Source of the DNA: Trichormus sp. M33_DOE_039
Lineage (GTDB): Bacteria; Cyanobacteriota; Cyanobacteriia; Cyanobacteriales; Nostocaceae
Reading direction: 5' to 3'
NCBI GenBank assembly: GCA_015296085.1
Contig: DVDT01000090.1
Span: 1-64,000 of the forward strand
Length of the DNA stretch: 64,000 bases
The stretch's first letter is position 1; every line of letters starts with the position of its first letter. The position numbers were made by a program, and so were the translations under genes. Under the pieces are notes generated by a model. That model made no database searches, was not told where the DNA came from, and saw only the letters and a list, made by a program, of their open reading frames with translations. Shown piece after piece: positions 44,851 to 64,000 of the stretch.

Positions 44851-44926
44851 TTCTTATGGACATTAATTGCCGTGAATTACCTAAACTGATATTCGGTGAG
44901 TATGTAGTCTTAATAGTATTGATAAA

Positions 44927-45805
44927 TCAAAATATACCATAGTAACCACTTTTAAGAATTACTATATTTTTTTCTTCTGCCCTATAGTCGAAGCCAACAT
45001 CATACAGTAAGTGACTGAGTTTTACTCTGTTAGTCTTGACAAACTCGATGATTTTAGTCGGATAACCTAGCTTTGTCAAAAAGATGAGCAGCTGATCTAC
45101 ATTAATTCCAGAGAAGTAAATTGTGTCGCATTTTTGCTTGTTTGCTAAACAGATTGTTTGACAGTTTTGTAGTTCTGTCCAGAGAATCTGGTAGATGTCG
45201 ATCTGCTGACAGTCAACATGAGCAGAACAACAGATTTTTGATGCGACATCAGAGAGTTGTTGTGCTGTATTGAAAAAGAAGTAGAAGTTTTCTAATTGGG
45301 TTTGGTGATCGCTAATTGCATAGGCAATTCCCGAAGACACTGTACTTCCTGGGTTGCCGATATACATATGAATTGTTTCTAGTGGACGAGTACCAGCAAC
45401 AAGTTCTGCGTCAATATCCAGGGAAAACATGAAATAGGGAAAATTATCCTTTGGTGAAACATTGCAACGAATGTAGGGCGCGATCGCTTCTAAAACTCGC
45501 TGCATTGAGATATTTCTTTCTCGTCTTTGATAATCATAAAAATAAAATTCCCAAACTAAACGATTTCCTAACCATTTTATCCCCCATACTGTTTGAAATA
45601 GTCCGATTTCCTCCCGAATAGATTGCACAATTGGTAAAGCCTGCTTATCAATGCCTGCAATTTTAAAGGAATTAAACAATAAATTGACGGCGCGGAACTT
45701 ATTTTCTACTGGAGCTACTGGTGTGTATGGCCATAGACAGTAATTAAAATATTTATCGTGAGTAGTCGTATACTCAAAGTCAGCCTCATCTATATTGCTT
45801 AACAT
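44927..45805 (-). CDS. Unrecognised protein, last gene of the giant-adhesin operon (292 aa)
   Basis: I do not recognise this family. The protein is soluble and has no signal peptide. It has several aromatic beta segments (GIKWLGNRLVWEFYFYDY, PYFMFSLDID, ETIHMYIGNPG, GIAYAIS, ENFYFFFN) separated by helices, and a helical end with SHLLYDVGFDYRAEEKNIVI. The alternation of antiparallel-type strands and helices might fit an ABBA barrel (prenyltransferase-like), a low-confidence inference. Its ATG overlaps the stop of the upstream gene (ATAATG), so the two are translationally coupled. Cys pairs (KICCSAHVDC) are present. Confidence 0.7.
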   Translation of the reverse strand: MLSNIDEADFEYTTTHDKYFNYCLWPYTPVAPVENKFRAVNLLFNSFKIAGIDKQALPIVQSIREEIGLFQTVWGIKWLGNRLVWEFYFYDYQRRERNISMQRVLEAIAPYIRCNVSPKDNFPYFMFSLDIDAELVAGTRPLETIHMYIGNPGSTVSSGIAYAISDHQTQLENFYFFFNTAQQLSDVASKICCSAHVDCQQIDIYQILWTELQNCQTICLANKQKCDTIYFSGINVDQLLIFLTKLGYPTKIIEFVKTNRVKLSHLLYDVGFDYRAEEKNIVILKSGYYGIF

Positions 45806-46626: not shown

Positions 46627-46633
46627 TGTAATC

Positions 46634-47551
46634 TTAGGTGAGAGATGGAGTTTGTCTAGGTAAAGGAGAGAGAATGTCTTGCTGCCAGCCGAACTTTTTG
46701 ATATAGGCTGTATTTAGTCCGAGACACTGACGAGAACCACATTGTTCTCGATGGATACACTGATAAAAGCCGTTACGCATGAACTCTGTCCAAAAAGCAT
46801 CATCAATAAACAGCTTTGGTTGATCGTTGTTTAAAGCTGGGTTATGCTCTTTTAAAAGACATTCTGGAAAGTTTTTCACTTCTATTGCCAGATTTTTTTG
46901 CCAAGCTTTGGCGATCGCTTCCTTGAGAAAAGGTAGTATCTCTGTATACTCAACTATCAAGTCTTTTGCATCCGTTTCATTCATCGGCCAGTAATTCCAA
47001 AAATCCATTTGTACCAATCTGCGTAGGTGTGATAAACAATCTACTACTCTAGGCAAATCACGGTAACTCCGTTTGGTAATGACTGTGTTCGTTAATAGGA
47101 AGACATTCTCATAGGTATCTAAATTTTCTAATCCGCGCATCATTTTGGCAAAAGCTCCCCTCACAAGTGCGATCGCATCGTGGGTTTCGGCATCTGCTGC
47201 CATGACACTGACAAAGTATTCATCAATACCCGCTTCTACTAATTCTCTGCAATAATTCTCATCTGCTAGACGGATGCCATTAGTTTGGATGCGGACGTGT
47301 TCAAATCCGTGCTGACGAGCCATGCGGGCTAAATCTGGTAAGTTGGGATTGAGGGTAATTTCCGAGCCTGTAAAAATTGCACCTTTCCAGCGTCGATGTT
47401 GCTGGTTATAGCTGAGGATTTCCCGAAACCGTTCCATTGATTCTGGTTTGAGCCAATCCATTGTGCCTTCAATCATGCAATGTTCGCACTTGAGGTTGCA
47501 GCGAAAGTGCATGGTGAATTCAACATATTGTTTAGGGTCAAAATATCCCAT
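46634..47551 (-). CDS. Radical SAM enzyme
   Basis: I chose the ATG giving MGYFDPKQYVEFTMHFRCNL; the longer ORF would overlap the methyltransferase by 70 bases. The 305-residue protein has the cluster motif CNLKCEHC near residue 18, the Gly-rich GAIFTGSEITLNPNL near 57, and IQTNGIRLAD. Three C-terminal Cys in CIHREQCGSRQCLG may bind an extra cluster, as in SPASM/twitch enzymes that modify peptides or build cofactors. It follows the methyltransferase gene by 28 bases in the same operon. Substrate unknown. Confidence 0.85.
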   Translation of the reverse strand: MGYFDPKQYVEFTMHFRCNLKCEHCMIEGTMDWLKPESMERFREILSYNQQHRRWKGAIFTGSEITLNPNLPDLARMARQHGFEHVRIQTNGIRLADENYCRELVEAGIDEYFVSVMAADAETHDAIALVRGAFAKMMRGLENLDTYENVFLLTNTVITKRSYRDLPRVVDCLSHLRRLVQMDFWNYWPMNETDAKDLIVEYTEILPFLKEAIAKAWQKNLAIEVKNFPECLLKEHNPALNNDQPKLFIDDAFWTEFMRNGFYQCIHREQCGSRQCLGLNTAYIKKFGWQQDILSPLPRQTPSLT

Positions 47552-47579
47552 AGTTAATATTAATAGCTGGAGATTAAAC

Positions 47580-48650
47580 TTAGCTTTTTTTGGCAACGAT
47601 GAGAAAGAATGGCATTTCCAGGTTAATTGATTGGATGGTAATCTCCTCAAAACCTTGAGATGCTAATTGTCTTTGGTAAACTAAGGGAGAACGAAAATAG
47701 CGAAATAATAGAAGCATAGGAAGTAAGCAATAAGGTAAGGGTTGATCTGTTAATTCTATTTCCCCTCTTTCAAATATGAGTAACGTGCCGCCAGGTGCTA
47801 GGGATTTACTAGCATTGGCAATGAATTGCTCAGTTGCTGCTTCTGGCCAGTCGTGAAGTATGGATTTAAAAGTAATTAAATTACAATCTTTGGGCAAAGC
47901 ATCTACTAAGGCATTGCCTTTGATAAAGTTGATTCTGTTAGCTTCTGGTTTTCCTGCTACATGAGCTTGTCCGAGATCGCACACCAAAGGTAAATCAATC
48001 ACCGTTGCTAGTAGGTTTGGGTGTTGCTTGCAGATTTGCCGGACAAATTCACCACTATTGCCACCAATATCTAGAATTCGCTGGTACTGACTAAAGTCAT
48101 GATATTGCAAACATACCTGTGCTTCATATTTAGTTAGGGTAGTGGTGATTCGCAGCCAACGCTTGGTTAATTCATAGTTTTCAGGAGTTGGTTCAAAACA
48201 TCGGTGATAGCCAAACAGATCAAAAAGGCGCGATCGCTCCATGAATTGGCGGGAATTTTCCAGTAATAAGGTGAAGTGGTTAGCAAAGTCAGGCGCAACC
48301 CAATTGGCGAAGTCAAGTTTAACTTGCAGCAAATCCCGATACTGTAAAGCGATCGCAAATTGAGAACTGAGTTGGATCTGACCGTGATTTTCTTCTATAA
48401 CCCGATTGATTTTGAGTAAATCCAGCAACAAAGTCATTCCGGTGCGATCGCATGGCAATTGCTGTGTGAGAGTATCTCGTGTACAAGGTTGATTTGCCTG
48501 TAAATAGTCGATCAATCCGGTTTCAAAGGCACTTTTTAGCACTTGCGCCTTGACGAAGGTATCAATAAAAGCATCCACGCAGAGGTAAGCCATACTTTCT
48601 CTGCGAGATGCTATGTCAACGGTCAGCGGCTCTACACTTTGGGAATTCAT
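47580..48650 (-). CDS. O-methyltransferase, class I, dimerising type (PF00891-like)
   Basis: The 356-residue protein has an N-terminal winged-helix dimerisation domain (about 25-110: VLKSAFETGLIDYLQANQPC) and a SAM-binding domain with RILDIGGNSGEFVRQ (near 185), ATVIDLPLVCDLGQ and the catalytic-type SILHDWPE (near 266). Such enzymes methylate hydroxyl groups of small molecules, including phenolics and polyketides. Its ATG overlaps the SapC-family stop (ATGA), showing tight coupling in the operon. A small-molecule or modified-residue substrate is likely. Confidence 0.85.
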   Translation of the reverse strand: MNSQSVEPLTVDIASRRESMAYLCVDAFIDTFVKAQVLKSAFETGLIDYLQANQPCTRDTLTQQLPCDRTGMTLLLDLLKINRVIEENHGQIQLSSQFAIALQYRDLLQVKLDFANWVAPDFANHFTLLLENSRQFMERSRLFDLFGYHRCFEPTPENYELTKRWLRITTTLTKYEAQVCLQYHDFSQYQRILDIGGNSGEFVRQICKQHPNLLATVIDLPLVCDLGQAHVAGKPEANRINFIKGNALVDALPKDCNLITFKSILHDWPEAATEQFIANASKSLAPGGTLLIFERGEIELTDQPLPYCLLPMLLLFRYFRSPLVYQRQLASQGFEEITIQSINLEMPFFLIVAKKS

Positions 48651-49366
48651 TGTGTAATTCGTTCCACCATTGTGTTGAAATTACGCATTGATTGTAAATG
48701 TAAGTAGAGCAATTCCAGTTCATTGGTCTGTAAAAGGTCTACAAGCTGCTCCCCTGTAAGCTGATTTAAGCGATTACGGTTAACTGCCATAAAACCTGCT
48801 AAAGACGTTTGCTCACCTGTACCGAGAGTAAATTTAGCTTTCATTGGTTCGAGCAAATCTAGTGCTTGGAGCTTACTGCAAAACAGTTGTGTACGCTGAT
48901 ATTGCATTTGGAACTCTTTGAGAAATGCCAGGACACTTTCTAGATACTGGGTTTGCATTCCTTCCGTATCAAAGAGTCTTTCGCCGCGTCCTTCTTGATT
49001 ACACCCAACAAACCCTTCATCAATACAGAGTGTAAAAGTATTGCCCTCGTCATTACTAGAAAATACAAACGGGTAACGTCGGATAAAAGCGGGAATATAT
49101 TTTGCCTGCCAATCTCCTGTTTCTGTGAGGTAGAGGTTTTCCTGCTCTTTAATGCCCAAGATAGCCACTGGCATCATTGATTTTTCTGTCCCCGTAAACA
49201 CGATGGCATATTCTGCTGCCGCTTTAGGAAACTCCACCGCCATTAAGGGGACTGAATTGACCTGTCGTGCAAAACTGTAGTCTGTGCCTGTTTTGACTGA
49301 CCAGTTGCCATGTTTTTCCTTGGTAATGGGCGTTGCCTGTTCATAGATTAGTAGTTGCTTAGTCAC
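48647..49366 (-). CDS. SapC family protein
   Basis: I chose the GTG (MTKQLLIYEQATPITKEKHG) that has AAGGAG 8 bases upstream; the earlier GTG overlaps that site. The 239-residue soluble protein shows SapC hallmarks: VPLMAVEFPKAAAEYAIVF, GDWQAKYIPAFIRRYPFVF and LCIDEGFVGCNQEGRGERLF. The name comes from the Campylobacter surface-layer locus; the molecular role is unknown. It starts 29 bases after the giant adhesin stop, which agrees with a surface-protein link. Confidence 0.85.
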   Translation of the reverse strand: MTKQLLIYEQATPITKEKHGNWSVKTGTDYSFARQVNSVPLMAVEFPKAAAEYAIVFTGTEKSMMPVAILGIKEQENLYLTETGDWQAKYIPAFIRRYPFVFSSNDEGNTFTLCIDEGFVGCNQEGRGERLFDTEGMQTQYLESVLAFLKEFQMQYQRTQLFCSKLQALDLLEPMKAKFTLGTGEQTSLAGFMAVNRNRLNQLTGEQLVDLLQTNELELLYLHLQSMRNFNTMVERITQ

Positions 49367-49395
49367 TTTTTGCACTCCTTTGCATTTTCTCTGAC

Positions 49396-52300
49396 TTACG
49401 CCCCTGGGGTACTGCCGGCACTATTCGGGAGAAGACCCGTATCATTTTCTGGACTACCATTGGTGTCGATCTGACCTGGTAGAGTACCAGGTTGAGGATC
49501 GCGGGGTGCACCAGTGTCACTATTGACAATTCCTACTTCACCATTAGGTTCTGTGAGGGATTGGTCTGCGCCACTGGTGCGACCAAGATCACTGACAAAG
49601 GTCTTCCAGTTATTATTGGGTATGCGAATTACCGTTGGCGCACCAAATTGACTAAAGGAAACGAAATAACTGTTAAATTCACCATTCCAGTCAATTAAGC
49701 GATCGCCTCCAGTGTTGGCAATCAAGACATCCAAGCCACCACCACCATAGACGAAATCGGGGTCAGCATAAGCTGGCTCGTCTGGTTGAGTGTTCAGTCC
49801 GTCGTTGGTCTCTAAGTTATCATCAGCGTTCATGAAGTCGTCTCCTAAACCACCAAACAGACGGTCTTTACCTGTACCACCAACCAGCCAATCGTTACCT
49901 AAATCGCCGAAGATGCGGTCTTTGCCATCTTCAATCTTGACACCTGCACTATCGGTAGCCTCGAAATTCAGCAGGAAGCCGTTAATTTTAGCAAAGGGAT
50001 TATTGGCATCGTAGGCGGCGAACTTGCGAGTGGTGGGATCGTAGGCCAGTGGGTTGAGATTTGTGACTGGATCGGCGTTATGGAAGGCGGCTAAAGCCTC
50101 TGCACCCGATATAGCATCATCACCAGCACCACCATGAATAAAGTCATCTCCTAGTCCGCCATAGATGACATCATTACCTCCTTCTGTCCAGGCGAGGGAA
50201 ACAAAAGCTTTGGTCAAGCGACCTGTAATGTACTCAACTGCACCAACTTCATTGGAGGCGGATAAGGTCTCTTGCAGATTTGGGGTAGTTAATCCGTAAA
50301 GTGTTTCTGTCAAACCATTGCGGCTAGTCCGAATCATACCGTTATCACCGACGATGCCATCTTCCCCAGCACCACCATAGAGACGATCTGCGCCATCTCC
50401 ACCGTAGAGATCATCATCTTGACCATTACCGAACAAGACATCATGACCTGTCATCCCGTGAATTTGATCGTCGCCGCCTTCACCATAGATTAAGTCAGCA
50501 AAACCGCGATCGCTTGTGTCAGTGCCACCAGGAGTATAATCGAGCAAGCGGACTGCCCTGGGGATAATTTTGAGAGATGGGTCGTAGTTATCGTAGGTAA
50601 AGGTGATGAAGTTACCTGTAGCTGTGCCATTTATGCCAACTAGACGATAAATTATGCCGTTATCACCCAAAATCACATCTGCATCTAGGGCATGACCTTG
50701 AGTTGATAAGTTACCGAGATGATTGGCTACGATTTGTGTACCTGCACCGCCAAAGATTGTATCTAATCCTGTGGGGCGATCGCTGGCATTGCTTAAGCCA
50801 AAGAGATTGGAACTATCGCCAATAATATCGTCTTGACCCAGATTACCAAAGATTAAGTCATTGCCACCATTACCTTCAATGTAGTCATCACCATCAGTTC
50901 CTACGCCGCCAAAGTCTTCTACTGATGGATTTGTGGTTGATACATTGATCGCAGTAGAACCATCGCCCTGAATGGTATCATTCCCCAGTTGCCCGAAGAT
51001 GACATCATCATCAGCACCACCCGCAATCACATCATTACCCGATGTTTGCGGTAGTGGGTTATCGCTGTGGTCGTAAAGAACGATTTCCCGTTCGCTGACT
51101 CCTGTGGGATTAGCTTGGGAAGCGGCAGTTACTAACGGGTTGCCATTACTATCGTAAATAGTGCCATTGCTGAGGGTGCGAATGCGTGGGCTGATGGAGT
51201 TACCCTTGCGGAGAATGCGTGCATTATCACCGGCGATCGCATCGTTCCCTGCACCACCGTCAATAACATCATCGCCATCCTGACCGCCTGCAACGTTGTG
51301 ACCACCCCAGAGGTCATCATCACCTGCATTACCTGTAATGGTGTCATTGCCTTGTCCACCCAGGATGATGTCTGCACCGTCATCTCCTGTGAGGTTATCG
51401 TTACCACCACCATTGTTATTTTGAGTATTGATTGAGGTGAACGTAAACGGATCATTGGCGGTATTTAAGGGTAGTGCGTTGGCACTAATATCGCCCCTGA
51501 CTTCACCATGATCGCCAAAGATGAGATCATTACCTAGACCTCCAGTTACGGTATCAGCACCTGTGCCGCCGAATACAAAGTCATTGCCTGCACCGATGGA
51601 AATGTTATCGTTGCCGCCATTACTTGGGTTAGTGGTGGTAATCAGGTCAATATCAGCCGAATTACCGTCCGTTCCCACATAATCGACGATGCCGTTGTCA
51701 CCTAGCACAATATCATTCGCACCGTTAGTTACCACGACATCGCTACCAACTCCGGCTAAAACGATGTCTTCGCCCTCACCCGTAGTCATGCTGTCATTAC
51801 CGCCAAGCGTTGAATCGGTAGTTTCCAGACGCTGTAAGACACCGGCTACATAAGTAATAGTGCCGTTATCACCGATGACGAGGTTTTGACCGTTACCAGC
51901 AGTGACATTATCATTGCCACTACCCGCTAGGATGACATCGTTATTTACGCCTGTGGTAATGATATCGTTACCACCGACTTCCGGGGCTGTGGTATCTATT
52001 AGGGATAGTGCAGTCGCCGCCCAAGTGATAGTGCCATTGTCACCCAAGATAATATTGTTACCGTCTCCTGCGGTAATGGCATCACTACCACTACCACCGA
52101 CAACGATGTCTGCCCCTGTGGTAGTAGTAATTGCATCATCTCCACCTTGGGTTACGTCAGTGGCGGTCACTTCACTGACTACGCCGTTAGTATAGGTGAC
52201 TGTGCCGTTATCACCGATGACGAGGTTGTGACCATTACCAGCAGTGACATTATCGTTGCCACTACCCGCTAGGATGACATCGTTATTGACACCTGTGGTA

Positions 52301-55300
52301 ATGACATCGCTACCACCGACTTCTGGGGCTGTGGTATCAATCAGGGACAGTCCAGCCGCCGCCCAAGCGATAGTTCCATTGTCACCCAAGATGATGTTGT
52401 CGCCATCTCCTGCGGTAATGACATCACTACCACTACCACCGACAACGATGTCTGCCCCTGTGGTAGTAGTAATCACATCATCTCCACCTTGGGTTACGTC
52501 AGTGGCGGCAATTTCACTGACTACACCACTACTGAAGGTAATCGTTCCGTGATCACCCAAGATGAGGTTATTTTCAGTGCCGCCATCAATTTGATCGCCC
52601 AAAGCACCACCTAAGATGATGTCATCTCCTGCATTGCCAGAAATTACATCAGCACTGCCTACGGTTGCATTAGTGCTTTGGATAATATCCACGGTAGAGA
52701 GATTGCTATCGTTAATAACAAAGTCAATTACTCCATTATCCCCAATCAGTATATCTGCATTGTCACCGCCAGTCATGTTGTCAGCACCAGCACCACCAAG
52801 GATGCGGTCATTGCCTGCATTACCATGAATCTCGTCGTTTGCACCTTCAGCCGCATTCGTGGTTTCGATGCGTTGGACGTTATCAGTGCTGAGAAGTTTA
52901 GGTGTAGCGGCAGTCTGAGTGACGATGCCATGATCACCGAAGATAATGTCATCACCTGCATTGCCGGTGATGGCATCTTGACCAGCAGTTGCAGTTGTAG
53001 AAACGCTGAGGGTGCGTGCAGTTAGGTCAACATTGAAACCAGAATCGCCGTAGATAATATCGTTTCCGGCTTCACCTTGAATATTATCGTTTCCAGCACC
53101 ACCGGCAATCTGATCGCCTGCTTGAGAACCGCGAATAATGTCATCCCCTGCACCGCCGTAGATGACTACGTTTCGACTAGAAGCAGAGGCATCAATGGTA
53201 TCGTTACCTGGGTTGTTAAAATTCCTAGCCAGTCCAGGTTGAATGGTAGTTCCTGTACCTGTATAACGGCTACCATCTGCGGAGGTATCACCAAAAATTA
53301 CTAAAGGTGCGTCTAGTCCCCGTGGATCTATGCCGCCGCGATCGCTGACGGTAATATTATCATTGCCGCCGCCTCCATGTACGGCAGTAATCGCCCCGTC
53401 TGCGGTGCCTGTAACTGTCAGTTGATCGTTACCTTGACCTAATAATAGTTCGACAACTTCCAAGCTGCCGTAATTAATACCAGCAGGATTCATCCCAAAT
53501 CCGGTTAAGGTAGACTGACTCAGCGTTCCTACATCATTGGTTGTGCTGCCGTCGTTAAATACAGTAACGGTATCCCGACTGTTATTTTCATTGACAAAGA
53601 AGTTAGGCGAGAGATTAGTAATGGCAAATTCGCTATTACTGTCTGGCAATTCCCACTCTGATGCAGGTAAGCTGACATTTTGTAAGGTGAGTACAGTTTG
53701 ACTGGATACAGAACCTGTTGTGACATCAACTATTAACCAGAAGCGATTAATACCCTTACCCTTACTAATTTCTAGGGTACGACCAACCAACGCAGAGAGA
53801 TCAGGGATGGAGGGATTAGCGGCGATAAAGGCTGCTAAGTCACTTGTTGCTACCGTTAGAGTATCAATTGCTGAAGCTGTGCCTGTGCCATTGTAGGCGA
53901 GAACATTGCCTGTTGAGGGTCGTTGATTAGTTTCACCAGGGAGAATCACAGGATCGCCTAAACCGCCTGCTGAACCCTGACCGGAGAAACCGTCAATAAA
54001 TAGTGGGCCAGCTATGCTATCGAGTTTGTGTGTACCAGCTTGAGCAACTAACGCCCCATCTGCACCTACTACTGCCTCACTGTCACCGCCGATGCTAAAG
54101 CTATCACTACCTAAACCACCGAAGAGTTTGGTTGTTACCTGGTTATTGGTGGAGAGGACAAAGAACTGATCATCGCCTTCAGCACCATCGATTTCGAGGA
54201 TTTCAATTCCCTCATAGGTAATGCTGCGACCAACACCAAAGATCCCGTTTTCGGTAATTCGGAAAGTATCGCCAAATTCTGTACCAATAATCCGCAGGGT
54301 ATCAGTACCACTACCGCCAACAATATTGACTGCCGCATTTATGACGTATTCTACGGTATCGTTACCTGCTCCCGAATCAACGGCACTCTCGCTCGAACCT
54401 TCCTCCGCAAAGGAACGAATTACAAATAGATCATCGCCATCACCACCAGTTAGATCCAGAGTAGCTGTATTACGGAAGACAACAAAGGTATCTTCACCCG
54501 CTTCGCCTGCAATGGTAGTGGCAAAGCTAACCCCATTACTGAGGAAACCGCGAGTAGTCTGGGTAGTAGCAAATTCGTCCTCAAAGGCTAAATTAGCATT
54601 GGTGGCATCTCGTTCGCTCTTGAAGATTTGACCAACTTGGAAACTGTCATTGCCCAAACCACCCCGAACTGTAGTTTCAGTCCAGTTATCATCTAAAGTA
54701 ATTTGGTCATCGCCGCCTTGAGTATCCACGGTTAACTGTTCGAGATTCTTGTTGTAGTTAATCCGTTCTACATCCGTTGTCGGATCGCCATGCAGTGCTG
54801 CTACAAAGGCCACACCGCCATCAACAAATTCGCGATCGCTCGCCCGCATTAGGATATTATCTGCCGCCTCAGTCCCGAAAACGGTCAGGGTGTCTGCACC
54901 TGTAGTACCTGTATCAAAGACATTGATGATGTAATCTGTGTCATTACCTGTAATGGAGATTTCGTAGGTGTCGCCATCACCTTGTCCGTCCAGGTCTAGG
55001 GTATCGCGCCCTGGGGTGTTGCGACCGGGCAGAATCCGACTGGCTTTATCTAGGGATGGTAACTCAAAGACTTGGATGAAGTCTGTACCTGCACCACCCA
55101 GGACGCGGGTATGACCTGCCAAAGAGAGGGCGTTGCCTCCAGTATTCTCTGGATTGAAGGCAATTGTATCGTTTTCCGCACCCGCATCAATGGTGATTGC
55201 GGTGGCACTGAGATTACCCCATAATTTCATCTCGTCTGCGCCAGCTTGACTAGAGACATTGATACTGTCTGTAGCCGTAATTGTACCCAAGGTCAAGATT

Positions 55301-58300
55301 TCATCTGCTCCCGCACCAGCATTGAGATTGACTATCTCAGCCGTGAGAATGCCGTCTAACAAGAAGCGATCGCTATTTGTATTTCCATATATATCAATGC
55401 GTGTACCTGCTTCAACTTTACCTAGTACCTGAATCTTACTGCCAGCAGCATCTACAGCACCTTGGTAGTCACCGTACAACTCTACATAATCGGCTGCTTT
55501 AACAATTGCTCCTGCTTCAACGGTGAGATCGTCACCCGCTAGTAACCTGACGTAAGAACCTGTGCTTTCAATAGTAATGCCACTCTTAACAATTAAGAAA
55601 TCAGCATCGTCATCTGCGGGTGTGGCAGTTCCATCGACATCGCTATCGTTATTATCATCGTTAGCTAAGATGATAATTGCCTCGCCTGCTTGTTGATTTT
55701 CCGTCACTGTAATCGGACTAGAAGCAGTCAAGTTAATCGATCCACCTGCTACCATACCTGGGTCGCTTGAATCGACAACTCCACCTACCGCTAGCGCACC
55801 CGTATTACTTACCCAAGTGCTACCTGCGGTCGATTTGGCTTCAATGTTGCCGATTTCAGTGGTAATTCTCCGGTCTGCTGCTCCAATATTGTTCGCTGCA
55901 ACGAGGAAAGTCTTACCAGAGATGATATTAAAGCCATTGGGGTCGGCATTGCCATCGAGGATGCTACCAGCAGGTACGGTAATAAAGGCTGTTGCACCCG
56001 TACCTGTACCCACTTGATTCAGGCTGAGATCGCCTGCGGTTTCAATGATGTAGATGTTGGCGAATCCACTGGATGCTGTTAGCGTTCCCGCACCAGAGTA
56101 GGCACTGTTGATATCAAGGTCGTTGCCACTTACCCCAATACCACCGAGAACCGCTGTTAAGGAAATGTTATTACCGATAATATCGGCTTTAGGCTTGCTG
56201 GCTGGTACGGTAGTGTCGTCTCCCGAATTGGGATCGAGAGGATTATTCAAGTCAACGGCATCGAGAATCGACAGTTGCGCCCGGAGATTGACATCCCCAG
56301 TGCGAGAGAGAACGTTACGAATATTGAGATCGCCAAAGGTTTCGGCAATCCAAATGCTATTTTGGGCTGTCGCCGTTAAAGTTCCCGCACCGACGGCATC
56401 AATTTCCAGATTATCGCCATTTTCGCCAATGCTACCGCCTGCGGTCAGTTCGACGCGATTGGCTTGGATCTTAGTAAAGTCATGATTGAGCGCATCAACG
56501 ATTGAACCCTGTGCCTCTAGATACACGCCACCTGTCTTCGAGAATACGCCTTCTAAGTTCATATTGTCTGACGTTTCCGCGATGTAAACGTCATTATTGG
56601 CACGGGCTGTCAGCGTTCCGTTGGCAGTGAGATTAATATCAAGGCGATCGCTTGCTGTACCAATTGAACCTTGTCCTGCTTCGAGGATCAGTTCGCTACT
56701 GATGACATTAATCAGGTCAGCAGCACCGCCATTAACAATACTTTGTCCGGTCTTAATCCGCACTTGCTCCTGTGCTTGGATTTGATTGAGGTTAATATTG
56801 AGTTCCGAGCCTAAGAAGACATCCTTTTGAGCCGTAACATTAATACTTCCCAGCGCATCAACATCAATATCCTCGCGCTCTTTAATGATGACTGCTGTTA
56901 CTACAGCACCCGCCGCCGATGGGTCTAAGACAACTGGAGCAATGGTTACACTCACACCAGACTCATTACGGAGACTAGCAGAGGCAGTTAAAGCGATCGT
57001 AGTAGCGGTGACACTAGCAATCTGGTAGTATTGCCCGTCATCGGTGGCATTGTTAGAGTTGCCTTCGATGAAGATATACATACCCGCTTGGAAACCATCA
57101 GTAATCCAACTACCTGTATCTGTCCGGGTAATGGTATCTGCCGAGCCATTATCAGTAAAGTTAACCGTTGTTGTCACCGGATCGCCACCCAGGTAAACGA
57201 GGTCATCTCGTTCTGCTGCTGCCAACTTAACGCGATCGTCGGTACTTAGTTGCACGGGTTGAACTGAGAGATCGATGACGGTTTGACCATCGCTCTTACC
57301 AACGCCACCGGAGGTAATTAAAGTGACGTTGTTGCCGATGATATTCGGGTCTTCGATGCTGACTTGGGTATCAGATACAGCTTTGAGTAAACCAGCACTG
57401 AGGGTGTAAATCAACTCTTCTTCTGTCCAAACCTTAATACTGCCTCTCAAAGCGGCATCTTCTTGTGCAGTTAAGGTATAGGTGAAATTGGCATTAAATG
57501 TATTACCAAACTGTCCGTACTGAGCATGAAGCGTATGGTATTGGAGAGTGCGGGAGTTTTCTAGGGTGGTAATTGCATTTCGCACGAATTGGTCGAGTGC
57601 CGCACCACTTAACCCTTGTCCAATTCCCTCTTGTTGGTAGAAGTTTTCATAGAATGTTTCTTCTACATCCGTCAGCGTCACTTGGTGATTGCTGTCATAA
57701 ACCGAGGGGTTAGCTTGGGTGTTGCGGTATTGCCAGTAGGTCTTATATTCCTGCTCTTTAGTTGCAGCAAAGGCATTAATTGTCTCGTCAATCTTCGCCT
57801 GCGCTCCCGTTCCTGCGGTGAGTTGTAAATCAGTCCAAACGCCTGCTCTGAGTTCGTTAATCGTGCGCTCGTCCCTTTGGGCTACCTGATTGGCATCGAC
57901 GATACTACCATCACTGACTTCAACGGTGACATTACCAATCGTCTCAATCTTCTCAACCCGTAGATCGCCAGTTTTCTCTTTCAAGAAGATATCGCCCGTA
58001 GCGGTAACATTCACTTTATCTTTAAGGTTAGTACCGGAATCAAGGTCAATAGATTGACCACTGGCCCCAATGTCGCCACCGAGAGCGTTGAGAGTAATTG
58101 AGCCGCCCCTAATGAGTCCTTGATTAGCTGTCTTAATTCCTCCCTGTGCCGTTACCGTGACATCCTTACCACCGCCTGCGGTAATTAGATCGACTGCTAA
58201 ATCGCCGACTATTTCTGAGATCTGAATCGTGCCATCGCTCGTTGTCGCTTTTAAACTAGCGGTAGATCCATTAGCAACATCCGTCTTAATTGCTTGCTCA

Positions 58301-61300
58301 GAGCCAATTCCCGTAACCGCAGAAAGTTCGACGCGACGACCGCCAACATAGCCATTATCGCTGCCTTGTTTGATGGATTTATCGGAGGCAAGGCTAGTTG
58401 TGCCAGTGGCGTTGAGGATTGGGCCATCAAGGAGAATATTTCCTTGGGACTGTACTGAGATCGCCCCTTCGTCATAGCCGATAAAGTTAATCTTAATGGC
58501 GCGATCGGCTTCGATAGTGTGGGTATAAACGGTTTGGTCTCTACTTTCGTCAATAACCTGTTGATAGTAGGTTTTCGTTCCGTACCATGTACTTTCTGTC
58601 CAACTGTCTCCGGTATAGGTTTTTTGGGCGAGATTAAACACTTGGGTCGTAAAGTCATAGCGGGTCGTATTGTTAGCATCTAAGAAGTAATAAGACCCTT
58701 CTGGTAGTAGCTCAGGTTCAGTGATATTTTCGACCACGGGCGGACCTACAACCGTATCGGGATCGGCAGCTAGGGCATCGATACCAAGCCAAGCGGCATT
58801 GGCATAAGTCGTTGTCGTGCGTTCGCGGGTTTCTTCGCCAATCGACCAACCATAACGCCAGCCAGACTTGGGATTGTAAGTTGAATTATCGCTGCCTTGG
58901 GAAACCACTGGCCCTGAGCCATTATCCGTAGTAATAGTTACGCCATTGGCAGTCTTCTGATAAATAGTCACGAAGGGATTAGCACTCGTTCCCTTAGCTT
59001 TATCTTTGAGGACTAAGGTGCCATCGCCGCGTTGAGAGACATCCAGGCGCTTAATTACCAAATCATAAGGTGTATTGTTGGTAACGTTAATGTCGCCGTA
59101 ACCACCCAAAACTCGGATTTCTCCGTTAGCAGAGTTGAGAATGTGTCCTGTAATATCGATAAAGCCACCACTAACCCGCAGTTCTTCTAAGATAATTTGG
59201 TTATTCGCCACATCGTAACGAACCAAGAAGTCTTTGTTGGTAATGGATTGCAGGGTAATAGGATTGGAGTCCGTTCTGCCAGCTTTGCGAAGCTCTTCAA
59301 TTTCTGTAATCGTCTCCGCACTTAAAGTGAGTTCGTAATCGGACTTACCACTCTGAATGATGCCGTTGACGTTGACATATTCGGCATTGATAAAGATGCG
59401 ATCGCCAAACAGACTGACATTGGTGGGAATTTGGTTGAGAATACTGTCGATACCTGCTTGGTTTGCCGGTTGTGTGCCATTGCCTCCTGTCACTGGCAAC
59501 CATTTGGCGTAGTCCTCACCCGCTACTGGGAAGGATGTTCCGTCTCCTGGCAAATCGATTGTGACGCTACCGCCCGCTTCGATGATTTGATTCTCAACTC
59601 GGATGCGACCTTTAATATTAACATCGCCCTTTCCGGCAGCAAGGGTTCTGAGAATCAGATCGCCCTGTAAATTCTCAATATCTCCCAGTACGGTAATATC
59701 GGGCCAGGGATAAACATCGTTGGTAATGGAGGTGACATTGAAATCGTTAATAACTTGAATGATGGGTTCGTTGGCAGAACCACCGCCGATAATATTCGAG
59801 AAGGCAGCTACTCCCGCCACAACTAAGGATTCGCCGCTGAGATTGCTTTGGTTATCCTTGTCTGCATTGCGGTCGTTTTCTTCGTTAATTGCTTCGTTAA
59901 TTTCACTGATAGAACCTGCTGCCGATACCTCAACCCCATTCAGGAACAGACCGCCATTCTGCTCTGGGATAGTAATGCCGAGAATCTTAATGAAAGCGGG
60001 CGTATGGTTGAGAATATTGACGCTGGCATCACCGGGAGCATCAAAGACACCGTTGCCTTGCAGTTGGTCGCTACGGATATCGATTGTCCCTGCCTGAGCC
60101 AAGATCGGATCGACGGTGACAGTAATCGCATATTGTTCTACCCGATTGGTTAGACGAGCGGATGATGACCCTTCTGCCGGAAATGGTCCGCCTGTTTCTA
60201 ACAACCCTTCTGCCGCCAATGCCGCTTCGATGCGGGCAATTTCATTCTTATAGAAGGTCTCGAGGGTTTCGTTGGTATCCCCGTACTTAATTAACTCAGC
60301 TTTGGCTTGTTCTAAAGCTTTTTCCAGATTGGACTGAACTTTTTCTAAGGTAACGGTAAAGTTGATACCATCGCTCTTAGTAAAGTTGGTAATCGTGCCA
60401 GTATCGCGATCCCAACCGTTGAGTTCTAGGGTGAGATTGCGGTTAATGCCTGTCCGTACCGTACCATCTACTTGCACAGTACCGCGAGCTTCACTCTTGG
60501 AGAATCCTTCATACTGCTCGGTACCGCCGCCACCTGTTAATTTATCAATGCTATTACCCAAAGCGTTGATCCAGTTCACCGCTTTAGCTTGGGCGATTAA
60601 ATTGGCAAATCCGTCTCGTTCGGCGTGGAGTTTGGCATCCCTGGCGGTTTCTAAGATGGCTCCGGACGCAACGGTAATCTTATTCTCCTGCAACAAGTAG
60701 GCTTCGGCATTGACAGATTGGATGGGAATCGCACTACCAGCAAAGGTATCGGTGCGGGATTCAAGGGTATAGGCATCGCGGTTAAAGTTTGTATCTGTTC
60801 CCGCCGACAGGTTGAGGTTGCCGCCTGCGCGGATTTTGGCATTATTGCCGATCGCAATCTCGTTGGTAGGTTTGAGATCGATTTTGGAATTGGCGACCGC
60901 CACCGTACCAATACCATAGGTTTCTGCATTCACCTGAAGCTTGACATCACCCTGTCCTCTAGCGGAGATATCGATACCGCCCGTGCTTTGTAGGGTTGCG
61001 CCCGTACCTACTGCTACCTTAGCTAGGTCGCTTAAGCTGCTAACCTTAGCCGTAGCATCCGCACCCGATACAGCGCCACCTGTAGTTAGGGTGATTTTAT
61101 CGGTAATATCAATATCGTTGAGCGATCGCAAGGTGATGGTATCGTTACTGGCAGTATTGCCTACCACTGTCAGGACGGCGTTATTACCCACAGTGGTTAA
61201 GGTACTCAAGCTGAGGGTAGTCTCGCTATCAGCACCCGCACCACTCACTAAACCGCCCGTTGTTCCCTTGAGATTTTCTGCACCATCTATCAAGTTCTTA

Positions 61301-64000
61301 CTGACTTTATTGGTGGCACCGATTTCGATATCTTTTGCCTTAATGTTGACATTATTGCCAACTCCTGCTTCAACGGCGGAGATAACTTGATTATTATTTG
61401 TCGCACCGCTACCAGCGATTACGCCACCCGCGCCCGTTTTTAGTTGGGTATCGAAGTTGGCGGTGTGTTTTGCCCCTATGGTCAGAGTTCCCGCGCCTCG
61501 GCTACTCAAATCGATGTCGATGGCGTTGCTGCTATTGCCCGATGAATCGTCTTTAATTTTGGCGATCGTGGTACTGCTATTGGAGGTGGTGGCACTAGCA
61601 CTTGTTCCCGCCACAATCCCACCGCTCCCAGCTGTGGTGAGGGCTAAATTGGTATCTTCTCCCACCGCCGAAATATTCAACGTTGCCCCAGTTAGTCTAA
61701 CTCCCGAACCGAAATAGGCTGTGGTATTAGTGTTAGTTAAGACGTTAGACTTACTGATTCCTACGGCGATAATGCCGCCAGCAGCACTATTAGATTCAGC
61801 TTTTTGGTTGCTAGTGCTAATTGCTGTGACATTGGTGGCGTTAGTAATATTGAGGTTGGCGTTATCGAGAACGTAGCTTTGAGTGCTGCTGTTATTGATA
61901 ACACTGGTGGTAGTAGAATCTACACCTAACAATAGTCCGCCCGACGAGCCAGAGGCGAATGCTTGGGCTTTTTCTCCCGATAAATTAGCTATAATCGCCA
62001 GACTTCTGGCGTTAATCTTACCACCCACGTAGGCATCGAGGTTGGCGGCCACTGTAATATTTGCTTGAGAAGAACCAATTCCCGCACCAGTAGAGGCGGC
62101 AACACCTTGAGCTTTAGCATCAGCTTCTAACTCCGACACAGCTGTAACGCTGAGATCGCCCGTCAGGTTCATTGTCACAGCGTTAGGAACGACTACATAA
62201 GCGGTTACTGTGGGGGTAATATTCGCTGAGGCTTTTGTACCTGTACCACTGACATTAAAGAATCCGCCGATCGCGGCAGAAAGGGCAAAGGTTTCTGTGG
62301 TAGCAGTACCAATATTCTTCGCCTCCACTGTGAGATCGTTGGCTGCTGACAGATTGCCTTGGAGGTAGGCTCTGGTAATGCCATTGAAAGTAGTATCAGC
62401 TAGGGTGACACCAACAGCAGCACCGACAGCACCGAGACTGATGGCAGTGCCGATCGCTTTAGTTGTTGTGGTTTGGTTGGAGGTTGCCTTGACGATCGCA
62501 TCACCAGCAATAGCACTGAGGTTTAACCTTCCCGCCGTACCTAAATAAGCTTCCACCGTACCGCCGATAGTCGTCTGGGCATCGCTACCCGCTCCAGCAA
62601 AGCCTCCAAAAACGCTAGCGGCGATCGAGGTGGCAATGGCAAAACTGTTGGCAGTGGCGGTGGAATCAGCCGTAATCTGGACATTGCCGTTAGTTACCGT
62701 CACCAAACCATCGACAAATGCCCTGACAGTATTATTAATCGTGTTATCGGTCACAGAAACGCCGATCGATCCGCCAACAGCACCAAAGGCTAAAGAACCA
62801 GCACCGACATCGGAGGAAATGGCTGAATTATCCGTAGCAGTAACTCGCAGAGTGTTACGAGTACTCACAGTACTATTGTCTTTAATTGCGGCTTCGATCG
62901 TATTGCTAATGATGTTGGTAGCCCCTGCTCCCGCACCGGAAAAACCGCCGCTAAACAGGGAAATCGCCCCGCCCACAGAAGCAGCGACGGCTTCTGAGTC
63001 AATACTGCTATTACTATCGGCAACGATTGTCACAGTGCCATTCAGTGCTTCCACAGTGGAATTATCGATAAAGCTGCGGACTTGGTTGCCGAGGGTGTTA
63101 TTGGCATCGACTGCGGCGATACTGAGGGAGACACTGACAGTACCACTACCAGATATAGCGACGCTACCGCCGTGGGCGGTGGCAGCGATCGCCGCGTCAT
63201 CAGTAGCACTCAAGCTGACAGTTCCAAGATTCGCTTTGACACCAGAACTATCTAGAATATAAGCCTCAATTACATTGGCAATGGTGTTAGTCGAACCAGC
63301 ACCCGCTGCCGAAGCCGCACCAGCCACTCCTGCTCCACTGACACTGACTGCGCCTGCTCCGCCAAAGGTAAAGGCATTAATTTCCGCCGTCGAATTGGCA
63401 TCGAGATCGACATTGTTTTGGGCATCTACTGTCGAGCTATCGATAAACGCTTTGGTGGTATTGCCAATTTTATTCTCACTAATGGCAAGTCCTACTGATA
63501 CTCCCGCCGATGCCCCTGCCAGACTCACAGCAACCGAGATTGCTACGCCACCAGCATCGGCTTTAATTCTGGAAGTATCTACCGCCAACAAATCAACATT
63601 GCCGTTAGTTGCTGTGACATCGCTGTTATTTTCAATGCTGGCAATAATTACCTGAGCGATCGCATTAGTCGAGCCAGCCCCCGCACCTGCTAAAGCTCCG
63701 GCTAATCCCGCACCAGTTCCCGCACCCGATGCCGCACCACCGATCGCTAGGGCATCAATTTGGGCTGCGGAAATCGCACTGAGAATCACATCATTGGCTG
63801 CTGTGACAGTTGAATCGGTAATTGTGGCTCGAACTAAGCTTTGGAAGACATCTTCTTGGGCAAAATTCTTGACTGTGCCGCCTTTTGTCAAACTGTGGCT
63901 GGCTCCAGCTACGGTGCGATCGAGGATGATGGGTTTGACGAAGATATCATCGCTGGTATCGTCTGGTGTGCCATTATTGCTACCTGTGGCTTCGTTTTGC
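49396..64000 (-). CDS. Giant repeat-rich RTX-type surface protein (partial, 5' end off window)
   Basis: The frame stays open to the window edge through the segment DDIFVKPIILDRTVAGASHS, so the TTG near 63891 is not the start; at least 4,867 residues are coded. In order there are: about ten alternating beta-repeat units with AGAGSTNTIANVIEAYILDS-like blocks; a long beta-helix region with LTATANN-type and VTATGDIFLKE-type repeats; and from about 53.4 kb to 49.9 kb many RTX calcium-binding nonapeptides (GGAGNDNIQGEAGNDIIYGD). The C-terminus carries DWNGEFNSYFVSFSQFG and an acidic Gly/Pro tail. I noticed no cysteine. It should be exported by a type I system and act at the surface; no such exporter is adjacent. 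Confidence 0.9.
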   Translation of the reverse strand, partial: QNEATGSNNGTPDDTSDDIFVKPIILDRTVAGASHSLTKGGTVKNFAQEDVFQSLVRATITDSTVTAANDVILSAISAAQIDALAIGGAASGAGTGAGLAGALAGAGAGSTNAIAQVIIASIENNSDVTATNGNVDLLAVDTSRIKADAGGVAISVAVSLAGASAGVSVGLAISENKIGNTTKAFIDSSTVDAQNNVDLDANSTAEINAFTFGGAGAVSVSGAGVAGAASAAGAGSTNTIANVIEAYILDSSGVKANLGTVSLSATDDAAIAATAHGGSVAISGSGTVSVSLSIAAVDANNTLGNQVRSFIDNSTVEALNGTVTIVADSNSSIDSEAVAASVGGAISLFSGGFSGAGAGATNIISNTIEAAIKDNSTVSTRNTLRVTATDNSAISSDVGAGSLAFGAVGGSIGVSVTDNTINNTVRAFVDGLVTVTNGNVQITADSTATANSFAIATSIAASVFGGFAGAGSDAQTTIGGTVEAYLGTAGRLNLSAIAGDAIVKATSNQTTTTKAIGTAISLGAVGAAVGVTLADTTFNGITRAYLQGNLSAANDLTVEAKNIGTATTETFALSAAIGGFFNVSGTGTKASANITPTVTAYVVVPNAVTMNLTGDLSVTAVSELEADAKAQGVAASTGAGIGSSQANITVAANLDAYVGGKINARSLAIIANLSGEKAQAFASGSSGGLLLGVDSTTTSVINNSSTQSYVLDNANLNITNATNVTAISTSNQKAESNSAAGGIIAVGISKSNVLTNTNTTAYFGSGVRLTGATLNISAVGEDTNLALTTAGSGGIVAGTSASATTSNSSTTIAKIKDDSSGNSSNAIDIDLSSRGAGTLTIGAKHTANFDTQLKTGAGGVIAGSGATNNNQVISAVEAGVGNNVNIKAKDIEIGATNKVSKNLIDGAENLKGTTGGLVSGAGADSETTLSLSTLTTVGNNAVLTVVGNTASNDTITLRSLNDIDITDKITLTTGGAVSGADATAKVSSLSDLAKVAVGTGATLQSTGGIDISARGQGDVKLQVNAETYGIGTVAVANSKIDLKPTNEIAIGNNAKIRAGGNLNLSAGTDTNFNRDAYTLESRTDTFAGSAIPIQSVNAEAYLLQENKITVASGAILETARDAKLHAERDGFANLIAQAKAVNWINALGNSIDKLTGGGGTEQYEGFSKSEARGTVQVDGTVRTGINRNLTLELNGWDRDTGTITNFTKSDGINFTVTLEKVQSNLEKALEQAKAELIKYGDTNETLETFYKNEIARIEAALAAEGLLETGGPFPAEGSSSARLTNRVEQYAITVTVDPILAQAGTIDIRSDQLQGNGVFDAPGDASVNILNHTPAFIKILGITIPEQNGGLFLNGVEVSAAGSISEINEAINEENDRNADKDNQSNLSGESLVVAGVAAFSNIIGGGSANEPIIQVINDFNVTSITNDVYPWPDITVLGDIENLQGDLILRTLAAGKGDVNIKGRIRVENQIIEAGGSVTIDLPGDGTSFPVAGEDYAKWLPVTGGNGTQPANQAGIDSILNQIPTNVSLFGDRIFINAEYVNVNGIIQSGKSDYELTLSAETITEIEELRKAGRTDSNPITLQSITNKDFLVRYDVANNQIILEELRVSGGFIDITGHILNSANGEIRVLGGYGDINVTNNTPYDLVIKRLDVSQRGDGTLVLKDKAKGTSANPFVTIYQKTANGVTITTDNGSGPVVSQGSDNSTYNPKSGWRYGWSIGEETRERTTTTYANAAWLGIDALAADPDTVVGPPVVENITEPELLPEGSYYFLDANNTTRYDFTTQVFNLAQKTYTGDSWTESTWYGTKTYYQQVIDESRDQTVYTHTIEADRAIKINFIGYDEGAISVQSQGNILLDGPILNATGTTSLASDKSIKQGSDNGYVGGRRVELSAVTGIGSEQAIKTDVANGSTASLKATTSDGTIQISEIVGDLAVDLITAGGGKDVTVTAQGGIKTANQGLIRGGSITLNALGGDIGASGQSIDLDSGTNLKDKVNVTATGDIFLKEKTGDLRVEKIETIGNVTVEVSDGSIVDANQVAQRDERTINELRAGVWTDLQLTAGTGAQAKIDETINAFAATKEQEYKTYWQYRNTQANPSVYDSNHQVTLTDVEETFYENFYQQEGIGQGLSGAALDQFVRNAITTLENSRTLQYHTLHAQYGQFGNTFNANFTYTLTAQEDAALRGSIKVWTEEELIYTLSAGLLKAVSDTQVSIEDPNIIGNNVTLITSGGVGKSDGQTVIDLSVQPVQLSTDDRVKLAAAERDDLVYLGGDPVTTTVNFTDNGSADTITRTDTGSWITDGFQAGMYIFIEGNSNNATDDGQYYQIASVTATTIALTASASLRNESGVSVTIAPVVLDPSAAGAVVTAVIIKEREDIDVDALGSINVTAQKDVFLGSELNINLNQIQAQEQVRIKTGQSIVNGGAADLINVISSELILEAGQGSIGTASDRLDINLTANGTLTARANNDVYIAETSDNMNLEGVFSKTGGVYLEAQGSIVDALNHDFTKIQANRVELTAGGSIGENGDNLEIDAVGAGTLTATAQNSIWIAETFGDLNIRNVLSRTGDVNLRAQLSILDAVDLNNPLDPNSGDDTTVPASKPKADIIGNNISLTAVLGGIGVSGNDLDINSAYSGAGTLTASSGFANIYIIETAGDLSLNQVGTGTGATAFITVPAGSILDGNADPNGFNIISGKTFLVAANNIGAADRRITTEIGNIEAKSTAGSTWVSNTGALAVGGVVDSSDPGMVAGGSINLTASSPITVTENQQAGEAIIILANDDNNDSDVDGTATPADDDADFLIVKSGITIESTGSYVRLLAGDDLTVEAGAIVKAADYVELYGDYQGAVDAAGSKIQVLGKVEAGTRIDIYGNTNSDRFLLDGILTAEIVNLNAGAGADEILTLGTITATDSINVSSQAGADEMKLWGNLSATAITIDAGAENDTIAFNPENTGGNALSLAGHTRVLGGAGTDFIQVFELPSLDKASRILPGRNTPGRDTLDLDGQGDGDTYEISITGNDTDYIINVFDTGTTGADTLTVFGTEAADNILMRASDREFVDGGVAFVAALHGDPTTDVERINYNKNLEQLTVDTQGGDDQITLDDNWTETTVRGGLGNDSFQVGQIFKSERDATNANLAFEDEFATTQTTRGFLSNGVSFATTIAGEAGEDTFVVFRNTATLDLTGGDGDDLFVIRSFAEEGSSESAVDSGAGNDTVEYVINAAVNIVGGSGTDTLRIIGTEFGDTFRITENGIFGVGRSITYEGIEILEIDGAEGDDQFFVLSTNNQVTTKLFGGLGSDSFSIGGDSEAVVGADGALVAQAGTHKLDSIAGPLFIDGFSGQGSAGGLGDPVILPGETNQRPSTGNVLAYNGTGTASAIDTLTVATSDLAAFIAANPSIPDLSALVGRTLEISKGKGINRFWLIVDVTTGSVSSQTVLTLQNVSLPASEWELPDSNSEFAITNLSPNFFVNENNSRDTVTVFNDGSTTNDVGTLSQSTLTGFGMNPAGINYGSLEVVELLLGQGNDQLTVTGTADGAITAVHGGGGNDNITVSDRGGIDPRGLDAPLVIFGDTSADGSRYTGTGTTIQPGLARNFNNPGNDTIDASASSRNVVIYGGAGDDIIRGSQAGDQIAGGAGNDNIQGEAGNDIIYGDSGFNVDLTARTLSVSTTATAGQDAITGNAGDDIIFGDHGIVTQTAATPKLLSTDNVQRIETTNAAEGANDEIHGNAGNDRILGGAGADNMTGGDNADILIGDNGVIDFVINDSNLSTVDIIQSTNATVGSADVISGNAGDDIILGGALGDQIDGGTENNLILGDHGTITFSSGVVSEIAATDVTQGGDDVITTTTGADIVVGGSGSDVITAGDGDNIILGDNGTIAWAAAGLSLIDTTAPEVGGSDVITTGVNNDVILAGSGNDNVTAGNGHNLVIGDNGTVTYTNGVVSEVTATDVTQGGDDAITTTTGADIVVGGSGSDAITAGDGNNIILGDNGTITWAATALSLIDTTAPEVGGNDIITTGVNNDVILAGSGNDNVTAGNGQNLVIGDNGTITYVAGVLQRLETTDSTLGGNDSMTTGEGEDIVLAGVGSDVVVTNGANDIVLGDNGIVDYVGTDGNSADIDLITTTNPSNGGNDNISIGAGNDFVFGGTGADTVTGGLGNDLIFGDHGEVRGDISANALPLNTANDPFTFTSINTQNNNGGGNDNLTGDDGADIILGGQGNDTITGNAGDDDLWGGHNVAGGQDGDDVIDGGAGNDAIAGDNARILRKGNSISPRIRTLSNGTIYDSNGNPLVTAASQANPTGVSEREIVLYDHSDNPLPQTSGNDVIAGGADDDVIFGQLGNDTIQGDGSTAINVSTTNPSVEDFGGVGTDGDDYIEGNGGNDLIFGNLGQDDIIGDSSNLFGLSNASDRPTGLDTIFGGAGTQIVANHLGNLSTQGHALDADVILGDNGIIYRLVGINGTATGNFITFTYDNYDPSLKIIPRAVRLLDYTPGGTDTSDRGFADLIYGEGGDDQIHGMTGHDVLFGNGQDDDLYGGDGADRLYGGAGEDGIVGDNGMIRTSRNGLTETLYGLTTPNLQETLSASNEVGAVEYITGRLTKAFVSLAWTEGGNDVIYGGLGDDFIHGGAGDDAISGAEALAAFHNADPVTNLNPLAYDPTTRKFAAYDANNPFAKINGFLLNFEATDSAGVKIEDGKDRIFGDLGNDWLVGGTGKDRLFGGLGDDFMNADDNLETNDGLNTQPDEPAYADPDFVYGGGGLDVLIANTGGDRLIDWNGEFNSYFVSFSQFGAPTVIRIPNNNWKTFVSDLGRTSGADQSLTEPNGEVGIVNSDTGAPRDPQPGTLPGQIDTNGSPENDTGLLPNSAGSTPGA
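51885..52568 (-). repeat. Two tandem ~342-bp repeats in the giant gene
   Basis: Two nearly identical 114-codon blocks (about 51885-52226 and 52227-52568) code for VTQGGDDAITTTTGADIVVG, SLIDTTAPEVGG and NDNVTAGNG. More diverged copies flank them. High DNA identity suggests recent duplication or gene conversion. Confidence 0.8.

Follow-up and report, generated by a model that had tools for sequence, protein, structure and literature searches.

Gene organization of the unit

What do the five genes directly behind a giant RTX gene of the cyanobacterium Trichormus sp. M33_DOE_039 do, and does their work concern the giant protein itself? The stretch of DNA analyzed here (64,000 nucleotides, positions 1 to 64,000 of contig DVDT01000090.1; hereafter the window) ends in six genes that an earlier note, made from the sequence letters, had placed on the minus strand with short gaps; all six open reading frames are present there, with junctions from -4 to 29 bases. 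The giant gene lies at 49396..64000 and its frame runs on, open, to 64944; the contig ends at 64963, leaving the true start off the contig and the C-terminal 5,182 amino acids readable. Behind it follow, all on the minus strand, a SapC family protein (48647..49366), an O-methyltransferase (OMT; 47580..48650), a radical SAM protein (rSAM; 46634..47551), and two proteins that we call P4 (45805..46626) and P5 (44927..45805). The giant stop at 49396 is separated by 29 bases from the SapC start, a GTG at 49366 chosen for the spacing of an AAAGGAG that sits 8 bases upstream of it. SapC and OMT share a 4-base overlap (ATGA), 28 bases separate the OMT stop (47580) from the rSAM ATG (47551), rSAM and P4 are 7 bases apart, and P4 and P5 overlap by 1 base. 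The TTG starts called mechanically for the giant (63891) and for rSAM (47650) were not accepted as real starts. Promoter and terminator scans of 43700-49500 gave counts at shuffle level (22 versus 17.7, and 3 versus 3.5, respectively), which carry no information on transcription. Inside the operon there is no space for a precursor-peptide gene, the junctions being at most 29 bases.

Pfam matches over the cut-off confirm the identities proposed earlier for SapC (PF07277, E=5e-74; 249 bits over positions 2-219 of 220, cut-off 28.9), for OMT (Methyltransf_2, 78.2 bits; dimerisation domain, 31.7 bits) and for rSAM (PF04055, 69.4 bits). P4 and P5, noted at the time as two unknown proteins, have no Pfam or NCBIfam family in searches of both collections. 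The giant is of the RTX type, as described (PF00353, 175 bits, seven stretches), but the label of adhesin finds no backing, since the Pfam scan (E<=0.001) of 4,867 amino acids of the window giant returns RTX repeats only.

Recurrence of the genes across phyla

We scanned 84,980 species genomes for relatives of rSAM with an alignment of an rSAM pair and two peptide patterns (KC[EV]HCMI and QM[DE]FW[NT]Y), a procedure that will have missed more distant relatives because it relies on two patterns. It returned 72 rSAM loci, mostly in Proteobacteria and Planctomycetes and several of them cut by contig ends, and iterated profiles of the five proteins were then run over their open frames. P5 was found in 65 of these loci, P4 in 48, SapC in 44 and OMT in 42; among the 52 loci with at least 4 kb on both sides, the numbers are 50, 39, 38 and 31. 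In 64 of the 65 loci P5 is found on the rSAM strand and no more than 2.5 kb from rSAM, the exception (L014) having a P5 that consists of a 53-residue piece on the opposite strand. Whole-genome searches for P5 and for the LEPR-XLL motif discussed below covered the genomes of 50 of the 72 loci (hereafter carriers), picked mainly for their longer contigs, and P5 was found in all 50. The gene-neighbourhood search that the earlier note had recommended thus yields a recurrent set, and its remark that no system with this set of genes had been described agrees with our search of the open-licence PMC literature, in which none was found.

The closest counterpart is that of Nostoc sp. FACHB-152, where the identical six genes stand in the identical order (giant-SapC-OMT-rSAM-P4-P5) behind an open frame of 8,004 amino acids, and where rSAM is 94% identical to that of the window. 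Among the matches listed, and leaving aside the broken frame L078, the next-best rSAM relatives are 60-69% identical and belong to Proteobacteria and Planctomycetes; such identities in distant phyla suggest horizontal transfer. SapC occurs in 2 of 291 genomes of the window organism's class (its own genome counted), and P5 in 1 of 40 relatives, namely the organism's own genome; the first distant P5-rSAM pair lies on a plasmid of Pontibrevibacter. The order OMT-rSAM-P4-P5 is also seen in several planctomycete and proteobacterial loci, and many Proteobacteria have either [OMT]-P4-P5-rSAM-SapC-giant or giant-export genes-P4-P5-rSAM-SapC. That the set is kept although the order changes argues in favor of a functional unit. 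Pairwise P5 distances show correlations of 0.72 with the rSAM distances (n=65), 0.84 with those of OMT (n=39) and 0.68 with those of P4 (n=47), values uncorrected for species history. One scan of viral contigs gave zero relatives, and a viral origin was set aside on that account. The cassette recurs across phyla and is no local accident.

The giant partner and the LEPR-XLL motif

Had the homologs of the downstream genes been found mostly without a giant, the association proposed in the earlier note would have lost its ground. They recur mostly with one: LEPR-XLL is matched over the cut-off in 46 of the 50 carriers, in a frame of at least 1,000 amino acids in 45 and of at least 3,000 in 36. By comparison, 13 of 190 genomes of the class of the Mesorhizobium carrier (the control being confined to Alphaproteobacteria) have a LEPR-XLL match over the cut-off, four of them in a frame of at least 3,000 amino acids, the carrier counted; the remaining 189 genomes yielded no P5. 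Within the loci, a frame of at least 1,000 amino acids lies on the cassette strand in 35 of the 52 well-covered cases and on the opposite strand in two. LEPR-XLL or a near variant stands in each of the 14 loci in which the start of the giant could be read, and both giants scanned from these 14 match NF012209 over the cut-off. A LEPR-XLL frame of at least 1,000 amino acids lies within 12 kb of 32 of 51 P5 copies, always on the same strand (32/32); four LEPR rows below the cut-off were omitted from these distances, and the frame extents are calculated values, derived from the position of the motif and the length of the frame. Two P5 copies exist in genome G359, and each shares its contig and strand with a LEPR frame of about 10,000 amino acids.

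The link is uneven. Nostoc sp. FACHB-152, whose giant has a DUF4347 near its start, is one of four carriers without a LEPR-XLL match; another (L056) has an open-ended frame of 2,011 amino acids beside its cassette. The window's own genome gives no LEPR-XLL match at E<=1, the N-terminus of its giant lying off the contig and perhaps in an assembly gap. The four planctomycete carriers have numerous short matches (16 in G323), and only in G344 does one lie within 12 kb, so that the link is weak in that phylum. The partner giants resemble the LEPR-XLL giants (NF012209) in the motif of 46 of the 50 carriers, in the RTX repeats of the giants scanned, and in the serralysin-like ends that some show by eye; they differ in that the window genome and Nostoc sp. 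FACHB-152 have no match to the motif. A LEPR-XLL protein of about 8,000 amino acids is on record for Vibrio sp. VB16 (PMC10868602), and the passage describing it makes no mention of a tailoring cassette. The longest LEPR-XLL open frame among the matches listed, of 17,223 amino acids, belongs to an Acetobacteraceae metagenome-assembled genome (G362:C20:2359 onward). LEPR-XLL was also considered as a discriminating mark of the partner giants and rejected, since the LEPR giants of genomes G401, G530 and G543 match the Nostoc giant only around DUF4347.

A tryptophan- and tyrosine-containing block

The window giant and the giants of six carriers (whole open frames of 8,004-14,241 amino acids) share a common core, which three genomes without P5 lack in their LEPR giants. 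In the window this block of 1,925 amino acids lies at 55453..61227 on the minus strand. The LEPR-RTX giants of plasmids L008 and L009, on neither of which P5 was found, match in their RTX part and are devoid of the block (about 1,900 amino acids). A profile built on the window giant and the six others, which match it by construction, was applied to 20 further giant slices from 19 genomes, for which long frames were chosen and one 20-kb slice was taken of each. All 20 carrier slices, those of Pontibrevibacter and Monaibacterium among them, match the profile versus none of the five LEPR giants from places without P5; for independent genomes such a split would be expected about 2 times in 100,000, an assumption that does not hold for related genomes. 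The plasmid-borne giants (L008, L009) make up two of the five without the block, and for them the P5 search covered the plasmids and not the host chromosomes. The planctomycete carriers lay outside this test. The one carrier in which the block is missed is G339; its metagenome-assembled genome has a LEPR frame of 4,724 amino acids and an rSAM in two pieces. The partial giants of L005, L008, L009, L016, L017, L056 and L066 show no block; these C-terminal pieces of 591-2,011 amino acids are too short to count.

Over 27 rows, the matched span measures 1,865-3,459 amino acids. Consensus motifs include GWRYGWS, WLGID, TWYG, EYxTYW and KVWTEEEL, with strings that vary. Eight tryptophan or tyrosine columns are conserved in 27 of 27 rows (in residues of the window giant: WY 2120-2121, YW 2403-2404, Y2400, W1458, W2370 and W2506), 13 such columns are conserved to at least 93%, as are 6 of the 14 tryptophan columns, and cysteine is absent (0.00%). 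Tryptophan is often the best conserved residue of any fold, and its conservation in the block is therefore no proof of modification. The block finds no match among NCBIfam families or PDB sequences, and Pfam, scanned with the window giant, adds nothing beyond RTX. Its distances correlate modestly with those of P5 (0.40) and rSAM (0.29), again uncorrected for species history. The cassette accompanies one family of giants, the family that bears this block.

In Pontibrevibacter and Monaibacterium (L006:3202-16846, L073, L076), P5 and rSAM stand directly behind a giant with an end that by eye is autotransporter-like. This giant measures 3,926 amino acids in L006 and is open-ended with more than 3,000 in L073 and L076; the L006 frame, which was the one tested, is without the block.

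SapC as companion of the giant

The name SapC derives from the sap S-layer locus of Campylobacter fetus; the likeness to that locus lies in the name and in the association with a surface protein, the relation here being a match to the Pfam family only. An alignment of 50 of 51 reference sequences with that of the window was made for this protein. In genome G247 and on the two plasmids L008 and L009, a giant is accompanied by SapC and P5 was not found; SapC was consequently rejected as a strict member of the enzyme set, and it stays with the giant in places that lack P5. The suggestion of the earlier note that all the downstream proteins may act on the giant, or make a small molecule attached to or displayed with it, is upheld as regards their association with the giant and has to be amended for SapC, which is tied to the giant and not to the enzymes. 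In Thalassospira, SapC follows a giant of the filamentous-haemagglutinin type.

We examined 11 of the 46 plasmid records with SapC. Those of Sphingobium and Catenovulum (L115, L117) have SapC with a TonB-dependent receptor and a tryptophan halogenase, and at the loci of Thiodictyon, Aminobacter, Rhodospirillum and Terrarubrum neither a giant nor the receptor/halogenase pattern lies directly at SapC. The SapC-halogenase-TonB receptor clusters are like the present unit in that SapC adjoins the gene of an outer-surface protein and a halogenase; they are unlike it in that the receptor replaces the giant, in that one of them has a cupin-like protein, and in that no radical SAM protein or O-methyltransferase is annotated within 10 kb. 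These clusters hint at a wider theme of SapC, halogenase and surface protein.

The tailoring-type enzymes

In an alignment of 48 rSAM sequences (47 of 69 references plus that of the window), the cysteines C18, C22 and C25 of the CX3CX2C motif are invariant, as are the additional cysteines C231, C265, C271 and C276. These four cysteines were considered in a comparison with the SPASM/twitch peptide modifiers, which have an auxiliary Fe-S cluster domain; the best 25 of 48 matched NCBIfam families all score below their cut-offs. The protein has the radical SAM core and extra conserved cysteines in common with radical SAM enzymes of ribosomally made peptides (RiPPs), and it resembles HxsC4, SkfB and YydG among others (relatives of HxsC, SkfB and YydG); unlike for those enzymes, the operon holds no gene of a short precursor, and the candidate substrate is a giant protein. 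The Methyltransf_2-type family, to which OMT belongs, works mostly on small molecules.

For P4, an AlphaFold2 model (pLDDT 93.9, pTM 0.90) predicts five pairs of strands, ten in all, separated by helices except at the junction of pairs 2 and 3. The order of strands and helices is near that expected of ABBA prenyltransferases. A profile from 46 of 47 listed references plus the window sequence gives a weak local match to the PatF family (P 0.034; 2 of 40 column shuffles score as well), and OcyF is matched with E 1.2 at the motif of this same local match. TIGR04445 is absent from the 16 NCBIfam families matched by any of the 47 members. On one model and weak profile signals, then, P4 appears to be ABBA-like and might be a prenyltransferase. 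With the LynF/TruF/PatF enzymes (TIGR04445) it would share the five strand pairs and the helices that separate most of these; it differs from them in adjoining the gene of a giant protein and not that of a cyanobactin precursor. On sequence grounds P4 was not accepted into the PatF family, TIGR04445 being unmatched; the global P4-PatF alignment, equalled by 32 of 40 shuffles, was uninformative. A LynF/TruF/PatF-family prenyltransferase over the cut-off is encoded elsewhere in the genome of the window organism (G000:C83:88359-89180, L093).

P5, the most constant partner of rSAM in the survey of loci, has 34 invariant columns in 66 sequences (65 of 65 references plus the window) and no significant match among PDB sequences. 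Profile comparison is at most suggestive of an ABBA or PT-barrel fold for P5. Homology of P4 and P5 to each other was considered and set aside as not demonstrated (BLAST E 0.93; a profile score equalled by 1 of 40 shuffles).

A tryptophan halogenase is present in 22 of 79 loci, and 8 of the 23 halogenase frames are fused to P4, which makes it probable that halogenation and the chemistry of P4 are coupled; two frames join P4 with P5 and one joins rSAM with P4. The halogenase-P4 frames were seen in Methylobacterium-type loci (L021, L027, L029, L031, L032, L037, L075 and L079). Families with a WelO5-like halogenase, a methyltransferase or a B12-binding radical SAM protein as their scanned member occur in 5-6 loci each, neighbor families being named after one scanned member apiece. 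All these enzymes suggest a chemistry by which aromatic side chains, or else an aromatic metabolite, are tailored.

Proposed function and alternatives

The reading that we prefer, with a probability of a little over one half, is that OMT, rSAM, P4 and P5 constitute a mobile tailoring cassette whose substrate would be the adjoining giant secreted RTX protein. In such a scheme SapC would bind the giant, present it or keep it competent for export; rSAM and P5 might perform the core step on conserved tryptophans or tyrosines of the block; P4, if similar to the ABBA prenyltransferases, could alkylate an aromatic residue; and OMT would cap a hydroxyl. In other lineages the tryptophan halogenase, sometimes fused to P4, would add a halogen, and export of the giant would come after its modification. 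Against this reading, P4, SapC and OMT are each missing from at least one quarter of the 52 well-covered loci. The small-molecule habit of the OMT family, the lack of the block in the G339 giant and in the autotransporter-like frame of L006, and the weak LEPR-XLL link of the planctomycetes count against it as well.

Giant secreted proteins shape biofilms and surfaces, and tailoring of their side chains by radical SAM, ABBA-like or halogenase enzymes was not found in the open-licence PMC literature. More tentatively, the evidence may be read as pointing to an undescribed surface system, in which giants of about 5,000-17,000 amino acids would be tailored on the tryptophans and tyrosines of the block by rSAM and P5, with alkylation, halogenation and O-methylation varying by lineage and often, in Proteobacteria, with SecA-like, PqqD-M50, HlyD and TolC proteins; the giants would then be by far the largest RiPP-like substrates. 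If this is true, proteins 5,000 to 17,000 residues long would be subject to natural-product chemistry, and the enzymes would provide a new means of altering aromatic residues in proteins. The analysis also names a candidate target block, ties to it two families, P4 and P5, that had no assignment, and offers for the SapC family a role, that of a partner of surface proteins, which can be tested.

It is possible, though we judge it rather unlikely, that the cassette makes a small aromatic product, derived from indole or tyrosine, which would be bound to the giant, displayed with it or exported along with it, and for which the block would be the binding site. The family of OMT, the ABBA-like P4 and the halogenase of 22 loci all resemble the tailoring of natural products, as do the WelO5-like halogenase, methyltransferase and B12-binding radical SAM families, and the conserved aromatic residues of the block could bind a ligand. 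Against this, no scaffold-building enzyme is found among the annotated recurrent neighbor families (one family that occurs in 10 loci and several smaller ones fall outside the annotation); the window operon itself has enzymes of the tailoring type only. Moreover, the presence of the cassette follows a block of protein sequence.

Other lineages often carry export genes, and these bear on a further explanation. A PqqD-M50 protein (at least 780 bits) and a second, short SecA-like ATPase (at least 680 bits) are each found in 39 of the 50 carriers, often within the cassette locus, and the SecA-like gene lies at most 400 bases from the PqqD-M50 gene and on the same strand in 37 of 43 places. The PqqD domain resembles the RiPP recognition element. 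In L053 (1164-8130) a GAF-HlyD protein, a PqqD-M50 membrane protein, a short SecA-like ATPase and a second HlyD stand beside LEPR-XLL giants; this set looks like a dedicated exporter of giant proteins. A family with a TolC-like scanned member occurs in 19 related loci. One could suppose from this company that maturation by the cassette concerns SapC, the secretion apparatus or an export cofactor, and that the giant stays unmodified. We consider this improbable: plasmids L008 and L009 have the giant with SapC, HlyD, PqqD-M50 and SecA-like genes, and P5 was not found there, whereas the cyanobacteria G000 (the window organism) and G319 have the cassette without PqqD-M50. At a threshold of 1e-20, no PqqD-M50 was found in the cyanobacteria G000, G247 and G319, each of which has a single, full-length SecA.

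P5 and rSAM might instead be general modifiers of large repeat proteins, whatever the route of export, the link with the block being a by-product of shared ancestry. Their position directly behind the autotransporter-like giants of Pontibrevibacter and Monaibacterium speaks for this, but both genomes (G364/G365) also hold a block-bearing LEPR giant 44 kb from P5 and rSAM, and the five giants from places without P5 are without the block, so that we regard a general modifier as very improbable. A chance neighborhood in one cyanobacterium, to which the drop in GC content from about 0.47 in the giant to 0.37 in the downstream genes might point, is already contradicted by Nostoc sp. FACHB-152 and by the 72 loci of several phyla, and hardly deserves credence.

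Other secretion-related genes of the window

Two further regions of the window deserve mention. Secretion by a type 1 system takes a dedicated ABC exporter, HlyD and TolC; in the window a C39-ABC transporter and an HlyD, which may or may not belong to the giant, are encoded at 32988-36714. They form part of a RiPP-like cluster (30608-36714) with a YcaO protein on the plus strand, the HlyD on the minus strand and the C39-peptidase ABC transporter on the plus strand, about 8 kb from P5. Beyond it, positions 26630-29296 encode a protein of 888 amino acids with a TPS (two-partner secretion) domain.
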